A DNA stretch of 64,000 nucleotides from Elusimicrobia bacterium HGW-Elusimicrobia-1 (GTDB lineage: Bacteria > Elusimicrobiota > Endomicrobiia > PHAN01). Below the pieces are notes generated by a model, which worked only from the letters and a program-made list of their open reading frames with translations, was not told the DNA's origin and ran no database searches. A program made the translations under genes and the position numbers. Shown piece after piece: positions 831 through 37,649 of this stretch. The stretch's first letter is position 1; each line of letters opens with the position of its first letter. The DNA lies in NCBI GenBank assembly GCA_002841695.1, contig PHAN01000003.1, positions 62,001-126,000 of the forward strand, read 5' to 3'.

Positions 831-1499
831 GTGAATAACATGGGGGGACATCTTTATATTTTTCTCGATGAAGGCGGCAACCTTGATTTTTCCGCGCGGG
901 GCACTAAATATTTTGTTATGACCGCCATAGTCAAGACAAGACCTTTTGATGCTTACAAGGAACTCGCCGAAATAAAATATGACTTGATAGAATCCGGGCT
1001 GGATTTGGAGTATTTTCATGCCTCCGAAGACAGGCAGATAGTCAGAGATGTTGTATTCAGAGTGATTAAAAAGCACTTGGACGTGATTTTGGATAGTTTG
1101 GTAGTAGAAAAAAGAAAGGTCGATCCCGTATTGCGGGCGGAGGAAAGATTTTTCCCTGAAATGCTGGGTTATCTGTTAAAATATGTATTGGGTTGTTGCG
1201 AATTATCGGGATATGATGAGATTTTAATATTTACCGACGCCATTCCCTTAAAGAGAAAAAGGGAAGCCATAGAGAAAGCCATCAAAAAAGTGCTTAAAAG
1301 AGTTGTGCCGCCGTTTACCAAGTACAGAATTTTCCACCATGCCTCAAAGTCCAGTTATGATTTACAAATAGCGGACTATTGCAATTGGTCGATTTTTCGC
1401 AAATGGGAAAGCGGCGACGCAAGGTCTTACGATATTATATCTTCTGCGGTAAGAAGCGAATATGACATATTCCGTGCAGGCGGGCGTTATTACTACTAA
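831..1499 (+). CDS. DUF3800 family protein (copy A)
   Basis: A 222-residue protein of the DUF3800 family, whose function is unsettled. The N-terminus has IFLDEGGNLDF, a variant of the family motif DESGD; further conserved acidic positions are in ILIFTDA (about 130) and LQIADYCNWSIFRKWE near the C-terminus. This spacing of aspartates would suit an RNase H-like nuclease fold, which is inference. The start is GTG 831 or ATG 840; no clear Shine-Dalgarno sequence is seen. Base composition is clearly more AT-rich than thrC and the genes downstream, pointing to acquisition. It is a paralogue of 35949-36581, sharing the FRK(W/Y)E C-terminal block, and like that copy is followed by a convergent structured-RNA locus. 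Confidence 0.85.
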   Translation: MNNMGGHLYIFLDEGGNLDFSARGTKYFVMTAIVKTRPFDAYKELAEIKYDLIESGLDLEYFHASEDRQIVRDVVFRVIKKHLDVILDSLVVEKRKVDPVLRAEERFFPEMLGYLLKYVLGCCELSGYDEILIFTDAIPLKRKREAIEKAIKKVLKRVVPPFTKYRIFHHASKSSYDLQIADYCNWSIFRKWESGDARSYDIISSAVRSEYDIFRAGGRYYY

Positions 1500-1569
1500 A
1501 AATTAAGACCGCCCCGACTACCCTTGCGGGAGAGCCCCATGGGCTCTTGTCATCGGAGCGGTACCTTTT
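1498..1569 (-). ncRNA. Putative structured RNA A, convergent with DUF3800 gene A
   Basis: Read on the minus strand, this segment starts about 7 bases after a strong promoter. It folds into a 10-bp closing stem (ACCGCTCCGA, 1562-1553, with TCGGGGCGGT, 1517-1508, one G:U-type difference) that encloses a hairpin AGAGCCC/GGGCTCT (1547-1531) and a small hairpin CCC-GCAA-GGG with a GNRA loop (1530-1521). It ends in a U-rich tract (AATTTTTAG) that abuts the DUF3800 stop codon. No open frame is present. Structured RNA motifs next to DUF3800 genes have been described as a class from comparative genomics; membership of this one is not tested. Confidence 0.55.
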
Positions 1570-1575
1570 GACGAT

Positions 1576-1604
1576 AGTGTATAAAATTGGCAGAGGATTG
1601 TCAA
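1576..1604 (-). promoter_or_regulatory. Sigma70-type promoter for putative RNA A
   Basis: On the minus strand TTGACA (1604-1599) and TACACT (1581-1576) are separated by 17 bases. The expected start point, near 1569, falls just ahead of the RNA's closing stem. The -35 region, the -10 region and the CGTCAA just after the -10 are shared with the promoter at 36687-36716. Confidence 0.65.
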
Positions 1605-6033: not shown

Positions 6034-7052
6034 AGCGGAACCTCCCGCCCACCCGCGATTTCAAAATCTCTTTTTCGTTTCGCCTGCCGTCATCCGGCAG
6101 ATTCTCCGCGACTCTGACCGCGCTTGTTCTTGCCACCGCGTTATATTTTTTCTACGCCGCGGTGATTGCCAACGATCTGGAGACAAAAATACTGGTCGAT
6201 ATTCCGCGTGATTCGACAGCGGCGCGCGCCTCGCGCATTCTTGCGGACCGCGGCGCCGTGAAATCGCCGGGGATTTTCAGATATTGGCTCAAGCTGGCGC
6301 GCGCGGAGTCGCGCATAAAAGCGGGGGTTTATGAGATTGCGCCGCGCGAATCCGTTTTCGGCGTGGCGTCCAAAATCGTGAGGGGCGATAGTCACAGGAT
6401 ACGGCTTACAGTTCCCGAGGGTTACGAGGCGGCGCGAATAGCCGCGCTTGCGGAATCCTCCGGCCTCGGCGCCTCCGCGGAATTCCTTGCGTATGTCGCA
6501 AAAAATGGTCTGGAGGGGTATCTGTTCCCTGAAACTTATTTTTTTGATTACGGCTCGACCGCCGAGGCCGTTGCCCGACGGATGAAAGAGGAATTTGATC
6601 GCAGGATAACGCCGGATATGCTTGAGCGCGCCAAAGAGACGGGACTTGATTTGCGGCGACTGGTAATTCTGGCATCCATCATCGAGAAAGAAGCCACGAA
6701 AAACGATCGCCGTCTGGTATCCGCGGTGTTTCATAATCGTCTGAAAAGAAGGATGTATCTGGAAAGCTGCGCGACCGTGCTTTACGCTCTCGGAAAACAT
6801 AAAGATCGGCTGATTTACGCCGACCTCAGAGTAAAATCGCCGTATAATACCTACCTTAATTACGGTTTGCCGCCCGGACCGATATCGAATCCCGGCATGG
6901 AGTCCATTATGGCGGCGCTTTATCCCGACGACTCCGCCGCTCTGTTTTTTGTCGTCGACGAAACATCGGGGACGCATATTTTTTCCCGATACTACAAAGA
7001 TCATCTCGGTGTGCAGAAAAAACCCGCCGCACAAAAAACGACCTCCCGCTAA
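6030..7052 (+). CDS. mltG: Endolytic murein transglycosylase MltG (YceG family)
   Basis: 340 residues with one N-terminal membrane helix (about 28-46) and a periplasmic YceG domain. Family motifs are LEGYLFPETY, the catalytic IIEKEA, VFHNRL and YNTYLNYGLPPGPISNPG. The usual LQSDPTV region reads LESCATVLYALG here. MltG cuts nascent glycan strands and sets their length. It is the last gene of the cinA-deacetylase-ruvX-mltG run; the ruvX-mltG pairing is common in bacteria. Confidence 0.93.
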   Translation: MKRNLPPTRDFKISFSFRLPSSGRFSATLTALVLATALYFFYAAVIANDLETKILVDIPRDSTAARASRILADRGAVKSPGIFRYWLKLARAESRIKAGVYEIAPRESVFGVASKIVRGDSHRIRLTVPEGYEAARIAALAESSGLGASAEFLAYVAKNGLEGYLFPETYFFDYGSTAEAVARRMKEEFDRRITPDMLERAKETGLDLRRLVILASIIEKEATKNDRRLVSAVFHNRLKRRMYLESCATVLYALGKHKDRLIYADLRVKSPYNTYLNYGLPPGPISNPGMESIMAALYPDDSAALFFVVDETSGTHIFSRYYKDHLGVQKKPAAQKTTSR

Positions 7053-7079
7053 TGCCGGCAAAAACGATTATTGACGGAC

Positions 7080-7108
7080 TTGACATGCCGCAAAAAAAAT
7101 GTTACAAT
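7080..7108 (+). promoter_or_regulatory. Sigma70-type promoter for the outer-membrane protein gene
   Basis: TTGACA (7080-7085), a 17-base spacer and TACAAT (7103-7108) lie in the gap after mltG. A strong AAGGAGG ribosome-binding site (7173-7179) precedes the ATG at 7185. Confidence 0.75.
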
Positions 7109-7184
7109 TTCCATAAACGTAATATTTGGAATCATCCGCGACGGGTTGTGTCCGCGCGCGGAATATCAAATTAAGGAGGCATAG

Positions 7185-8963: not shown

Positions 8964-9605
8964 ATGCGCAAATCTGTCCGCTTGCCCTCCATCGACGGCA
9001 AAACGTCAATTCTCCCCGGATGTCCGGCGAATTCCGGCTCGGGCGTTCCGAACTCCGTCGACCCGCGCTTAAAACTTGCCGCGCTGATAAGTTTTGTGCT
9101 TGCCGTCAATTTGACGCGCCCGTCGACAATTTATTTCGCGCTGTCTGTGGCGGTCGTTTTTTGCGCCGCGGTATTTGCGCGCCTCGCGCTCTCGCGCTTC
9201 GCCCGAAGATTTTTTGCGGCGGCATCGTTTGCCGCTCTCCCCGCAGCCGCCGGCTACGTCGGAGGCAATTTCGACGGCGCGAGAATCGCCGTTGTTTTAT
9301 CCAAATCGTGCGCGTGCATCGCCGCCGTTTCGATTTTTTCGTCGGTGACGACTTTCGGCGAGACCGTCAAAGCGATGGGTAATTTCGGAATGCCGCGGGG
9401 AGTTCTTGCGGTGGCTGTGTTTCTGCACAGGTATTACGCTGTCGTAGCCGACGAGCTCATCAATAAAAAATACGCCTTGGCCCTGCGCCCCCGCTTTTTT
9501 CTCATTAAGACCTACGGATACGCGCTCGCCGATATTTTTGGCCGCAGTTACAAACGCAGCGCGGCTATTTCGCGTTCCATATCCCTTCGCTCGGAGGGTT
9601 TTTGA
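8964..9605 (+). CDS. cbiQ: Energy-coupling factor transporter transmembrane protein CbiQ
   Basis: 213 residues, multispanning. An unusual polar N-terminal stretch of about 30 residues precedes DPRLKLAALISFVLAV, a typical EcfT/CbiQ start. The coupling-helix region near FLHRYYAVVADELINKKYAL contacts the ATPase in this family. It links CbiM to CbiO. The gene sits 15 bases after the PDGLE gene and overlaps cbiO by TTGA. Confidence 0.85.
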   Translation: MRKSVRLPSIDGKTSILPGCPANSGSGVPNSVDPRLKLAALISFVLAVNLTRPSTIYFALSVAVVFCAAVFARLALSRFARRFFAAASFAALPAAAGYVGGNFDGARIAVVLSKSCACIAAVSIFSSVTTFGETVKAMGNFGMPRGVLAVAVFLHRYYAVVADELINKKYALALRPRFFLIKTYGYALADIFGRSYKRSAAISRSISLRSEGF

Positions 9606-10357
9606 ATCGGAATCCTGCGTCATCGTCATCGGCGGAATCCTGTTTGTCTCCGGCCGTTTCGGCGGATGAACTCCGCTACGCCTATCCGGATACCGGCCAT
9701 AGCGCTGTTGACGGCGTAAGTTTCAGTGTCGCGTCCGGTGAAACACTCGTGGTCGCGGGTCCTAACGGAGCCGGCAAGACGACGCTTCTTATGATGGCGG
9801 CGGGCCTTATCGAGGGCGGAGGTTGCGCCGGCATATTCGGCGTCCGCGCTTCGCCGGCCTCGCTGCCGCGCTACCGGCGGCGGCTTGGTTTTCTATTCCA
9901 GAATCCCGACGAGCAACTTTTTATGCCTACGGTTTTCGACGATGTGGCGTTTTCTCTTGCCGACGACAAACTTCCGCCCGAAGATGTCGGCCGCAGAGTT
10001 TCGGATGCGCTTGCGCGCGCGGGTTTTACGGCTTCCGCGGCGACATCTCCGCACAATTTGAGTTTCGGCGAGAAAAAACGCGCTGCGCTTGCCGCCGCTC
10101 TTGTGACAAACCCCGACATTCTGATTCTTGACGAACCGACACTTGGCCTTGACCCCCCGTCTAAAAGAGATTTTATTGCGCTTCTCGGCGGGATAAAGGC
10201 CTCAAAACTGATATCAACCCACGACTTGGAATTAGCCGGACGTCTGGCCGATAAAATCTTGTTTATTGAAAGGGGAAAATCAGTTTTTTACGGACCATCC
10301 GGCGAATTCTTCGCCGGTTCCCTTTCGTCCGATTTCTTCGGCGACCCCCGCCCCTGA
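9602..10357 (+). CDS. cbiO: Cobalt/nickel ECF transporter ATPase CbiO
   Basis: 251 residues, one ABC ATPase domain: Walker A GPNGAGKTT (about 57-65), the Q-loop FLFQNPDEQLF typical of ECF ATPases, signature LSFGEKKRAALA, Walker B ILILDEPTLGLD and a switch histidine in STHDLE. TTG 9602, overlapping the cbiQ stop, is the best placed start; the first 20 residues are non-conserved, so a later GTG is possible. It powers the transporter encoded by the three genes before it. Confidence 0.9.
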   Translation: MNRNPASSSSAESCLSPAVSADELRYAYPDTGHSAVDGVSFSVASGETLVVAGPNGAGKTTLLMMAAGLIEGGGCAGIFGVRASPASLPRYRRRLGFLFQNPDEQLFMPTVFDDVAFSLADDKLPPEDVGRRVSDALARAGFTASAATSPHNLSFGEKKRAALAAALVTNPDILILDEPTLGLDPPSKRDFIALLGGIKASKLISTHDLELAGRLADKILFIERGKSVFYGPSGEFFAGSLSSDFFGDPRP

Positions 10358-33825: not shown

Positions 33826-35226
33826 ATGAACTCCCGCAAAAAAAAGATACAGTCATGGGCGCTGTTTTATCCGGAGATGGTTATTGCCGTAAAAGAACGA
33901 GATTATGAACGTCTGAAAGAAATCCTCGACGAAATACATCCCGTGGACATCGCCGATGCCTGGGAAAAATTCGACGCGGACGGACGGCTGGTTATCTTTA
34001 AGCTTTTGAGGCCGTCTAAAGCCATAGAAGTTTTTGAGGAACTCGACGTGCCGGATCAGCGTCATATACTCGATAATATCGAAGCCGCGCAGGCGGGGCG
34101 GCTCCTCGACGAAACGCCTTCCGACGTGAAAGCCCAGATTTTCTGGAAGATATCTCCCCGTCAGCACAAAAAATTTATGTCGCTGATGCGCTCCGAGGAA
34201 GCCGAGAAAGTCAGAAAAACTCTTGAATATCCCAAGGGCACGGCGGGTTTCCTGATGAACGCCGACTTCATCGATCTGAAACCCGACATGACCATCAAAC
34301 AGGCGCTCGAAAGAATCCAGCGTCTCGGCCGCTCCCGCAGGATAGAGAATCTCTACGCTTTTTATGTCATCGACGATGACTCGAAACTGCTGGGCGGCCT
34401 CACCCTCAGGCGCATCATAGCTCTGCCGCCGGACTCAAAAGTCCGCGATTCGATGTCTTCCGTCGGAGTGATTACACTTTCGCCCGATATGCCCGAAGAT
34501 GAAGTCGCGCGGATTTTCGCGCGCTACGACCTTACGTGCGCTCCTGTGTCCGACGAGAACGGGCGGCTTGCGGGTATTGTCGTGATAGACGACGTCGTCG
34601 ACATAATTCAAAAACTCAATACCAAAGAGATGTACGAAATCGGCAAGATGTCGTCGGAAGGCGGCGAAATAATCAGTTACAAGACGGCCAAAGTTTTCGA
34701 TTTGGTCCGCCGCCGCGCCGGATGGCTGATATTTCTTCTGGCCGTCAACTTTCTATCGGGTACGGTGCTTCAGACCTTTGAGTCGGCGCTGGCAGCGGTT
34801 GTTTCACTGGCGTTTTTCATACCGATGCTTCTTGACGCGGGCGGCAATGCCGGCGCGCAGACGTCGATTACGATAATTCGCGGCCTTGCCACGGGCGACG
34901 TCGATTTGAGCAATGTTAAAAAAATCGTAAGAGTGGAGATGGCCGCAGCGTTTTTTATGGCGATAATAGTCGGAGTAGTGGCGTTTATGAGAGCGTCTCT
35001 GATAGGCGAGGGGATATTTCTGGCGCTTACGGTGGGACTGAGTATGGCGACCGTCATAATGGTTGCCATATCGACGGGCATAGCGCTTCCTCTGATATCC
35101 AAAAAAGCCGGCCTCGACCCAGCGGTTCTGGCGGGGCCCATCACCACAACAATAGTGGACGTCATCGGATTGATAGTTTATTTCAAGATAGCGCAGATGC
35201 TTCTGCCGCAACTTAAACATTTGTGA
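33826..35226 (+). CDS. mgtE: Magnesium transporter MgtE
   Basis: 466 residues. N-terminal MgtE_N superhelical domain (about 1-140), CBS pair (about 145-265), plug helix and five membrane helices. PMLLDAGGNAGAQTS is the pore motif and AGPITTTIVDVIGLIVYF the last-helix motif with the conserved Asp. Mg2+ channel gated by cytoplasmic Mg2+ through the CBS domains. Together with the two CNNM-like genes it forms a magnesium-handling block inside the ybeY-recO interval. Confidence 0.95.
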   Translation: MNSRKKKIQSWALFYPEMVIAVKERDYERLKEILDEIHPVDIADAWEKFDADGRLVIFKLLRPSKAIEVFEELDVPDQRHILDNIEAAQAGRLLDETPSDVKAQIFWKISPRQHKKFMSLMRSEEAEKVRKTLEYPKGTAGFLMNADFIDLKPDMTIKQALERIQRLGRSRRIENLYAFYVIDDDSKLLGGLTLRRIIALPPDSKVRDSMSSVGVITLSPDMPEDEVARIFARYDLTCAPVSDENGRLAGIVVIDDVVDIIQKLNTKEMYEIGKMSSEGGEIISYKTAKVFDLVRRRAGWLIFLLAVNFLSGTVLQTFESALAAVVSLAFFIPMLLDAGGNAGAQTSITIIRGLATGDVDLSNVKKIVRVEMAAAFFMAIIVGVVAFMRASLIGEGIFLALTVGLSMATVIMVAISTGIALPLISKKAGLDPAVLAGPITTTIVDVIGLIVYFKIAQMLLPQLKHL

Positions 35227-35867
35227 GATACGAAAAGACAAATTGCATAGCGCTCGACGCATCGCCTTCGGGAGAATCCGATAAGACGCTGCTGTTGTGC
35301 ACGCAAACCTTCGGCAAGATAACGGCGGTGGCTCCCGGAGCGCTCAAACCCGCCGCCAGATTATCGGCGTCGCTGGAACCGTTCAGAGAATCGCGTATAT
35401 CGCTGTGGGGACGACCGCATTCTTTCAGAAACAGAATAACTTCGGCCGTGGTCGAGGAGCCGTTCGCGGGACTTTTTGACTCGGGCGAACGGATTCGGCA
35501 GGCCTTTGAATGCGCGCGCATATACGCGGCGGTTACGCCGTACTTTGAGACCGACGACGTAAAATATAATCTTGTGCGTCGTTCGCTGGAATTGCTGAGC
35601 CGCTCGGACAATCCGCGAGTGATCACGCCGGCGTTCACTTTACGGATGCTTAAAATTTCCGGCTATGACTTTGCCAGACAATATCCGCGCGCCAGGCTCG
35701 CCGACCGCCGTATAGCCGTTCTGGCGGAGCGGCTCGCGCGGCTCTCCGGCGATGACCTTGCTTTCGAGAAGGTCGACGATGAGTCTGCATCGCGGCTGAC
35801 ATTCGCTCTGGAAGCATACATAGAAGACATCTGCGGCGCGAAAAGGCGTCCTGCGGCCGCGTTATAA
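35223..35867 (+). CDS. recO: DNA repair protein RecO
   Basis: 214 residues. An OB-fold N-terminus (ALDASPSGESDKTLLLCTQT, FGKITAVAPGALK) and a helical C-terminal part (FELARIYAAVTPYF-like region; LRMLKISGYDF) match RecO. The zinc-finger cysteines of some RecO proteins are absent. RecO loads RecA onto SSB-coated DNA with RecR. Start is GTG overlapping the mgtE stop (GTGA). The usual downstream partner glyQ is separated from it by the DUF3800 module. Confidence 0.85.
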   Translation: MRYEKTNCIALDASPSGESDKTLLLCTQTFGKITAVAPGALKPAARLSASLEPFRESRISLWGRPHSFRNRITSAVVEEPFAGLFDSGERIRQAFECARIYAAVTPYFETDDVKYNLVRRSLELLSRSDNPRVITPAFTLRMLKISGYDFARQYPRARLADRRIAVLAERLARLSGDDLAFEKVDDESASRLTFALEAYIEDICGAKRRPAAAL

Positions 35868-35948: not shown

Positions 35949-36581
35949 ATGTATATTTTTTTGGATGAATCCGGCGATTTGGGTTTTGATTTTAGCAAGG
36001 CCCATACAACAAGCCATTTGGTAATAACCGTATTGGTTGCGCGGGACAAAACGGGATTTGAAAGAGCTGTTAAAAGAACACTGAAGAATAAAGTAAATCG
36101 CCGTAGAAACAGCGTTAACGAGATAAAGGGTTCGGATACCGCGTTCGAAGTAAAAAAATATTTCTATAACACGCTCTTAAAATATGAAACTGATTTTGAG
36201 ATTTACGCGGTGATATTGAATAAGAGGCGAGTTTACAAGTATTTATCTTCGGAGCCGGAGATGCTTTATGCCTTTCTTTCAAAGTTTCTTTTGGAAAAAT
36301 GCCCCTTCGAGCAAGCTATAGACAGGATAATATTAACGATAGATAAAAGAAGCCGCAAACAGGGAGTGGAAAGTTTTAACAAATATCTCCTGAGTTATTT
36401 GAAAGCGCAATTGCCTAAGATAGACATATATCATAATCATTCGTACGCGAGCAAAGGTCTGCAAGCGGTTGATTTGTTCTGTTGGGGGGTTTTCAGAAAG
36501 TATGAACGGAAAGATGCGGAATGGTACGATATGTATAAAGATAAAATCAGATTCGAGACCATGTATCTACCACAGAAATAA
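35949..36581 (+). CDS. DUF3800 family protein (copy B)
   Basis: 210 residues. Canonical N-terminus MYIFLDESGDLGFDF, a middle aspartate in IILTIDKRSRKQG, and C-terminal SKGLQAVDLFCWGVFRKYE. These three acidic motifs are the conserved ones of DUF3800 and are compatible with an RNase H-like active site (inference). GGGAG lies 11-15 bases before ATG 35949. Markedly AT-rich and lysine-rich compared with recO and glyQ. Paralogue of 831-1499 and, like it, followed by a convergent promoter and structured RNA. The module interrupts the recO-glyQ neighbourhood. Confidence 0.92.
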   Translation: MYIFLDESGDLGFDFSKAHTTSHLVITVLVARDKTGFERAVKRTLKNKVNRRRNSVNEIKGSDTAFEVKKYFYNTLLKYETDFEIYAVILNKRRVYKYLSSEPEMLYAFLSKFLLEKCPFEQAIDRIILTIDKRSRKQGVESFNKYLLSYLKAQLPKIDIYHNHSYASKGLQAVDLFCWGVFRKYERKDAEWYDMYKDKIRFETMYLPQK

Positions 36582-36680
36582 AGAAGGAAGCGACCCCTTT
36601 TGAACGCTTCCCCGCGAATATTATCCAATCTTACGAAAGGGAACTTCGCGGGAATTCAAAAGGACTTACTCGCTTCCTCT
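36579..36680 (-). ncRNA. Putative structured RNA B, convergent with DUF3800 gene B
   Basis: On the minus strand the predicted transcript folds into one long interrupted hairpin: AGGAAGCGA (36678-36670) with TCGCTTCCT (36593-36585), CCTTTTGAA (36663-36655) with TTCAAAAGG (36604-36596), and CCCGCGAA (36652-36645) with TTCGCGGG (36618-36611), around a 26-base apical loop. A U-rich 3' end (CTTCTTTATTTC) abuts the DUF3800 stop codon. All three helices are perfect. No reading frame is present. Sequence differs from RNA A. Confidence 0.6.
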
Positions 36681-36686
36681 TGACGC

Positions 36687-36716
36687 AGTATATAAGATTG
36701 CTTGCCGGCTTGTCAA
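36687..36716 (-). promoter_or_regulatory. Sigma70-type promoter for putative RNA B
   Basis: Minus strand TTGACA (36716-36711), 18 bases, TATACT (36692-36687), followed by GCGTCAAG and then the first helix of the RNA at 36678. Nearly the same arrangement as at 1576-1604. Confidence 0.7.
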
Positions 36717-36749
36717 GTCCGCCATGCTTCAATTTCAAGGAGACACAAT

Positions 36750-37649
36750 ATGACATTTCAGGAAATCATTATGGCTTTGGAGCGTTTCTGGGCGCGGCGC
36801 GGATGTGTTATATGGCAGCCCTACGACATTGAGAAAGGCGCGGGCACTTTCAATCCGGCGACGTTTTTAAAATGTCTGGGGCCGACGCCCTGGAAAGCGG
36901 CCTACGTGGAACCCTCGCGTCGTCCCGCCGACGGAAGATACGGAGAAAATCCCAACCGGCTGTGCCACTATTACCAGTATCAGGCAATTCTTAAGCCCGC
37001 CCCCGAAAACGCCCAGGGGCTGTATCTTGAATCTCTGGCGGCTATCGGATTGACGCCAAAAAAACACGACATAAGATTTGTGGAAGACGACTGGGAATCG
37101 CCCACTCTCGGCGCGTGGGGACTCGGATGGGAGGTCTGGCTCGACGGTATGGAAGTCACTCAATTTACCTATTTTCAGCAGATAGGCGGAATTACGCTTG
37201 ATCCCATCTCTCTTGAAATAACCTACGGGCTGGAGCGTCTGGCGATGTTCGCGCAGGGAGTTTCCAGCGTCTACGACGTAAAATGGAACCGCGACTTGAC
37301 GTACGGCGACATCCACAAGCGCGACGAATACCAGTTTTCCAAATATAACTTCCAAGAGGCCGACGTCGAAACGCTCCGGCAGGATTTCCAGAGGCACGAA
37401 GCCGAATGTCGCCGCCTCGTCGGTAAGGGACTTTTTCTTCCCGCCTATGATTTCGTCATGAAGGCCTCTCACGCCTTCAATCTGCTCGACGCCAGAGGCG
37501 CCATATCCGTATCGGAGCGCACCGCGTTCGTCGGACGTGTCAGGGGTCTTGCTAAGTCGGTAGCCGCCGCGTATGCGGAAGCCGAAGAGGCAAAAAAAAT
37601 CCCCGGTTCGGAAAATCCCGGGGAAATACTTTCTGCTTCGGGCGTCTGA
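36750..37649 (+). CDS. glyQ: Glycine-tRNA ligase alpha subunit
   Basis: 299 residues. [55 protein letters not shown] and FTYFQQIGG are GlyQ signature blocks; the class II motifs 2 and 3 are intact. The enzyme is an alpha2beta2 tetramer, so a beta subunit (glyS) is required; glyS does not follow here. AAGGAG (36737-36742) with 7-base spacing fixes ATG 36750. A minus-strand PilZ gene converges on it. Confidence 0.96.

Follow-up and report, generated by a model that had tools for sequence, protein, structure and literature searches.

We found that DUF3800 copy B, one of the two DUF3800 genes of the source genome, is accompanied by a structured RNA read convergently from the opposite strand, and that this RNA, the only one of its kind in the genome, belongs to the Rfam family DUF3800-V. 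Both lie in the window, by which we mean the whole 64-kb stretch of DNA analysed here. Gene and RNA together appear to form a mobile cassette of about 0.8 kb, and the RNA seems to be an obligate partner of V/X-type DUF3800 genes. We propose, giving the idea an even chance, that the two make up a toxin-antitoxin-like pair, with the RNA as the restraint on a nuclease.

The copy B locus and its convergent RNA

Copy B occupies positions 35949..36581 of the plus strand and encodes a protein of 210 aa, for which PF12686 (E 8e-15) is the sole Pfam family above cut-off. Its left neighbour is recO (35223..35867, plus strand; PF11967, E 6e-11) and its right neighbour glyQ (36750..37649, plus strand; PF02091, E 2e-144), within a neighbourhood of MgtE, RecO, GlyQ and PilZ, so that the placement of the gene in a preliminary description of this DNA is borne out by domain matches. 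The same description had reported a 94-base hairpin with helices of 9, 9 and 8 bp on the minus strand, a promoter TTGACA-18-TATACT and a U-rich tract at the DUF3800 stop, and each of these agrees with our analysis. The RNA runs from 36678 to 36585 on the minus strand (94 nt) and consists of three stacked helices, AGGAAGCGA/UCGCUUCCU (9 bp), CCUUUUGAA/UUCAAAAGG (9 bp) and CCCGCGAA/UUCGCGGG (8 bp). Its −35 box TTGACA lies at 36711..36716 and its −10 box TATACT at 36687..36692, both on the minus strand, with a spacer of 18. The U-rich 3′ tail, UUCUUUAUUU (36576..36585, minus strand), overlaps the stop codon TAA of the gene (36579-36581), the edge of the RNA being 3 nt from that codon. Tail and outer helix together are likely to act as an intrinsic terminator, as predicted from their sequence.

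The minimum free energy of the RNA is −43.9 kcal/mol (z = −5.9), and none of 200 dinucleotide shuffles was equally stable. The opposite strand folds nearly as well (z −5.6). Folding stability alone was therefore rejected as a basis for the strand of the RNA, which is instead assigned from the promoter, from the U-rich 3′ tail and from a match in Rfam. That match, which the preliminary description overlooked, covers the full length of the DUF3800-V model (RF02964, model positions 1-96) at 46.4 bits against a gathering cut-off of 37.4 (E 6e-7 in a search of the whole window) and lies beside a PF12686 gene, making the copy B RNA a member of the family. Rfam enters DUF3800-V as an sRNA and does not state a function; its sister families include DUF3800-X, -IX, -VI and others. 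Double (compensatory) changes were found in 21 of 28 pairs of the V RNAs and in 14 of 29 pairs of the X RNAs, with 95-97% of cells paired (RNAalifold, within sub-types). The loop bases of V/X RNAs are invariant and the three-helix shape is fixed. These patterns indicate that the structure is under selection.

The recO-glyQ insertion and the extent of the cassette

The preliminary description held that recO and glyQ had been separated by insertion of the module as a whole, a view supported by two comparisons. The first covered those class relatives for which the glyQ locus was retrieved. In 10 of them recO lies directly upstream of glyQ with a gap of 2-180 bp, and none of these 10 gaps holds a DUF3800 gene or the RNA (sought with the covariance model R3, described below); the gap in the source genome (G000) is 882 bp. 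DUF3800 is thus not an ancestral gene that all relatives carry at this site, and the cassette here appears to be a derived insertion. G330, the only congeneric genome, carries another insert of about 1.5 kb at this place (L063 7919-9411), flanked by the ends of recO and glyQ. This insert consists of an ORF of 53 aa and an uncharacterised gene of 301 aa, and no DUF3800 match was found in G330. It looks as if the gap took inserts twice and is a recurrent insertion point. A clean empty site within the genus had to be rejected, as the gap in G330 is occupied; the proposed comparison of the interval in relatives accordingly yielded the bare gap, whereas the exact ends of the cassette at recO-glyQ are unreadable because of the other insert.

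The second comparison gives the extent of the unit. Between the modules of genomes G263 and G290, homology sets in shortly before the start of the gene and ends a little past the RNA promoter; the flanking DNA is unrelated (49-53% identity), which argues that gene and RNA together are what moves. By this measure the −35 box of the copy B RNA is the probable right end of the cassette. According to our own reading of gene identities, cassettes mostly adjoin housekeeping genes and not defence islands.

At another locus (L065:7731-11900, contig C62 of G142), four DUF3800-V modules stand in tandem, separated by a near-identical repeat of about 230 bp that corresponds to the 3′ end of a neighbouring 234-aa gene (export-like in our own reading). 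The DUF3800 genes of this array are clearly diverged despite the near-identical repeated flank, and the arrangement suggests that cassettes were inserted or exchanged at a single site.

Scattered sites, unrelated flanks and sharp ends, together with tandem arrays in which flanking gene ends are repeated, might also be read as the marks of a selfish mobile element whose RNA serves the mobility or replication of the cassette, with DUF3800 as its nuclease. We consider this quite unlikely, since no transposase, terminal repeats or target-site pattern was seen at the cassettes, no genome has more than a few copies, and the RNA-protein linkage is conserved across phyla and does not occur in bursts.

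RNA-gene linkage, related RNA families and one-sided loss

A profile of 15 proteins (A1) was scanned against GTDB genomes and returned 441 relatives, the best 80 of which were examined; four of these (L217, L244, L253 and L254) are contigs already among the loci known. At 80 of these best 80 loci, which come from many phyla, the RNA lies on the opposite strand and adjoins the stop codon of the gene. Taken together with the RF02964 match, this positional agreement places the copy B RNA beyond chance. The distance from the 3′ edge of the RNA model to the stop codon has a median of −2 nt (range −25 to +80) and is usually within about 12 nt. The covariance model used, R3, has 46 rows drawn from a subset of the 80 loci, a plasmid locus and the window, the copy B RNA scoring 68.6 bits; loci outside the training set match it equally well. 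The same convergent RNA is also present at that one plasmid and at one viral contig, the latter being the one DUF3800 locus found among viral contigs, while no match was found among 50,697 phage records. DUF3800 proteins of archaeal plasmids (28-32% identity) had no V/X, XIII or Rfam RNA.

Distances between RNAs and between proteins are strongly correlated (Mantel r 0.83, n 82, 0 of 5000 permutations). This correlation shows that the two are inherited together as a unit and not that they are in contact, and neighbouring parts with any kind of functional link would be expected to be co-inherited. Among loci of other DUF3800 types in the phylum, only 4 of 20 have an Rfam RNA, so that the rule of an obligate partner is limited to types V/X, XII and XIII (for IX there are few loci). 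Two further arrangements were seen among V-type loci. In L202 (1911-2076), two convergent RNAs come after a V-type gene, first one of type XIII and then one of type V, and additional gene-less V-type RNAs adjoin intact modules in L213 (1480-1580) and L223 (3591-3691).

The second DUF3800 gene of the window, copy A (831..1499, plus strand), matches PF12686 (E 6e-12) and the PADLOC model DUF3800_VII (E 8e-7). Its ORF is listed from a GTG, but translation more probably starts at an ATG that lies a few codons downstream. Copy A has the layout of copy B with an RNA of a different family, which we call XIII: the RNA (1507..1568, minus strand) is convergent, 62 nt long and folds as a three-way junction (z −4.4), behind a putative promoter at 1578..1604 of the minus strand (TTGACA at 1604-1599 and a −10-like TATACA at 1583-1578). 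It gave no match to the Rfam DUF3800 families at E ≤ 10. Besides copy A, XIII RNAs were found beside the same kind of gene in five other genomes of the phylum (L111-L113, L115 and L116). A further RNA that faces other DUF3800 genes, XII, with the core GGGGUUCCGUAUGGUUCC, is present at loci L102-L106, L109, L123, L276 and L279 in two phyla, including two loci of the L221 phylum that are outside its building set. It has double changes in 13 of 25 pairs and, as tested for L102-L106 and L109, no match in Rfam at E ≤ 0.5; in L109 it is retained beside a gene with nine stops. Both XII and XIII thus appear to be newly described RNA families absent from Rfam, one of them represented in this window.

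DUF3800-IX RNAs are likewise convergent with their gene. Unlike V, IX, XII and XIII, the DUF3800-VI RNA lies upstream of the gene and on the gene strand (L151 1419-1472). This difference bears on an antisense, type I-like explanation, in which the RNA pairs with the 3′ end of a long DUF3800 mRNA or convergent transcription blocks the gene. Some type I pairs have convergent 3′ ends, and at copy B the overlap of the U-rich tail with the stop codon, like the convergent geometry in general, would permit pairing. Nevertheless, such pairing needs neither extensive covariation nor invariant loop bases, and in DUF3800-VI a partner RNA persists where pairing of this kind is impossible; we regard the explanation as very unlikely.

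The two partners also differ in their promoters. On the RNA side, a sigma70-like promoter with at most two mismatches was found in 54 of 82 modules, against 3.6 expected from dinucleotide shuffles; the mean number of mismatches to consensus is about 2.1 for the RNA promoter and 4.2 for the gene side, the latter being about shuffle level. An antitoxin RNA would be expected to be in excess over its protein.

Losses were counted in 341 genomes of the phylum and, as an independent replicate, in 123 genomes from the phylum to which locus L221 belongs (Nitrospirae). In the 341 genomes, an intact gene accompanied 19 V, 5 XII and 6 XIII RNAs, and a broken or absent gene accompanied 10, 7 and 0, respectively; in the replicate the counts were 5 and 5. 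In sum, the gene is broken or missing next to 22 RNAs, which come from two phyla. No intact V/X, XII or XIII gene lacking the RNA was found in either search apart from G142:C23, whose gene is truncated at the 3′ end close to the end of the contig and is without an RNA. In G290, where the gene carries 9 stops, the accompanying RNA is 92.6% identical to the RNA of an intact module, and the gene 78%. This one-sided loss is what an antidote predicts, but it is suggestive only: the gene is about five times as long as RNA and promoter together and is thus the bigger target, which makes the asymmetry weak as a test of an antidote role. Under neutral decay proportional to length, P is 0.017 for 0 of 22 and 0.08 if G142:C23 is counted. 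Gene-less RNAs also have lower scores (61.5 vs 71.4 bits, p 0.016), indicating that some are decaying.

Gene-less DUF3800-V RNAs were seen near genes for AbiEii and ORF6N-domain proteins in L068 (RNAs at 7045-7142 and 9560-9653) and L079 (14621-14714). Loci L016 and L021 have a downstream flank in common, yet their RNAs differ in the inner helices and are nearly identical at the ends.

The survival of RNAs without a gene is also at odds with the suggestion that the element does no more than terminate transcription in both directions between convergent units. A stable hairpin with a U-rich tail at a stop codon is in keeping with that suggestion, but a near-consensus promoter of its own, a length of 90-100 nt, conserved loops and the status of an Rfam family are not, and we find it hardly credible. 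Covariation, own promoters and the upstream DUF3800-VI RNA led us to reject both the terminator-only and the antisense-only readings.

The predicted nuclease, its proposed restraint and known systems

A sequence search for a solved structure gave no significant match to the copy B protein. In its AF2 model (pLDDT 84.7, pTM 0.85), the top seven PDB matches found by Foldseek are all RNase HII/HIII, with no others at E ≤ 0.001. The protein resembles these enzymes in predicted fold and in its N-terminal DE..G signature; it differs from them in that the TM score is only about 0.5 and the identity 7-19%. Among 82 proteins, D6, E7 and D132 are conserved in 100% and D175 in 99%. These four, placed in the model like an RNase H active site, are candidate catalytic residues, and the copy B protein models as a compact RNase HII-like nuclease. 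A DUF3800 protein linked to Cas12a2 is reported to have an RNase H fold "with a catalytic rearrangement" (PMC10910872), and at some CRISPR loci, among them certain Cas12a2 and VI-F loci, DUF3800 is described as an accessory with an RNase H fold (PMC10910872, PMC12669027).

In the toxin-antitoxin-like pair that we propose, the RNA would be transcribed convergently, and in excess, from its own strong promoter, bind the nuclease directly and hold it inactive. When the supply of RNA is lost, for example through phage shut-off of host transcription or loss of the cassette, the nuclease would be freed and would damage nucleic acid, and growth would stop. In its action the pair would then resemble a type III-like toxin-antitoxin system, with RNA as the antitoxin, or an abortive-infection system. 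Obligate linkage, loss asymmetry, promoters, RNA structure, co-inheritance, the predicted fold and the precedent of AbiF all point in this direction. Weighing against it are the limits of the loss asymmetry given above, the siting of most cassettes next to housekeeping genes and the lack of a match among the phage records. On balance we judge restraint to be as probable as not. No antitoxin role for DUF3800 is proposed in the passages of the DUF3800 literature that were consulted. The DUF3800 motifs were reportedly described in a paper of 2017.

In the main rival view the RNA activates the enzyme as a cofactor or guide, DUF3800 and RNA forming an RNA-dependent nuclease like OMEGA or CRISPR effectors in which both are needed. 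The RNase H-type fold, RuvC-like in outline, the obligate adjacency of RNA and gene and the company that DUF3800 keeps with some Cas12a2 and VI-F loci are all compatible with it. However, on inspection of alignment and structure no segment long enough for a guide was seen to be both variable and free of pairing: the RNA ends pair together, the variable parts are covarying helices and the loops are conserved. Furthermore, the RNAs persist gene-less, although a cofactor alone should be useless, and the RNA promoter is far stronger than the gene side. We therefore rate a cofactor or guide role as rather unlikely.

The nearest tested precedent for an RNA that restrains the nuclease is AbiF, a toxin neutralised through direct binding by the abiF motif RNA RCd22 (RF03085), a structured partner RNA of about 100 nt with its own sigma-A-type promoter and terminator (PMC12373285). 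Like the DUF3800 RNAs, this RNA family was first known from comparative genomics. The abiF RNA, however, lies upstream of the gene and is co-transcribed with it, whereas the DUF3800 RNA is convergent; the AbiF protein belongs to the Abi_2 family (linked to Cas13), and copy B to PF12686 with a predicted RNase HII-like fold. Toxicity and binding have been shown for AbiF and are proposed for the copy B pair. With the type III systems ToxIN and CptIN the pair would share an RNA that holds a nuclease by direct binding. ToxI is described as a multi-repeat RNA (PMC8860590) and lies upstream of its toxin; the copy B RNA is a single, non-repeated unit on the opposite strand with its own promoter, and the protein is of PF12686 with a predicted RNase HII-like fold and not of the ToxN/CptN type. 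By definition, then, the pair is not type III.

One of the PADLOC defence models likewise carries the name of DUF3800. This model, DUF3800_VII, which copy A matches, presumably describes a type VII retron system with a DUF3800 effector. The likeness lies in a DUF3800 protein in a nucleic-acid-controlled pair; the difference is that no reverse transcriptase stands beside copy B or among the copy A neighbours examined (a PALP enzyme and an SNF transporter).

DUF3800 RNAs have been catalogued without a function, and DUF3800 itself is a domain of unknown function that is also present at some CRISPR loci. To RF02964 our study adds the quantified obligate linkage, the promoter asymmetry, the loss asymmetry, the cassette ends and a functional hypothesis. 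It is possible, and we would put it slightly short of an even chance, that DUF3800 V/X, IX, XII and XIII form one phylum-spanning class of RNA-restrained RNase HII-like toxins, distinct from types I and III, in which each nuclease clade has a dedicated tail-to-tail RNA and which spreads as cassettes of about 0.8 kb. The families XII and XIII extend the class of DUF3800 RNAs beyond Rfam, and linkage, promoter asymmetry and one-sided loss together lead to one clear and cheap prediction, namely that the RNA restrains the nuclease.
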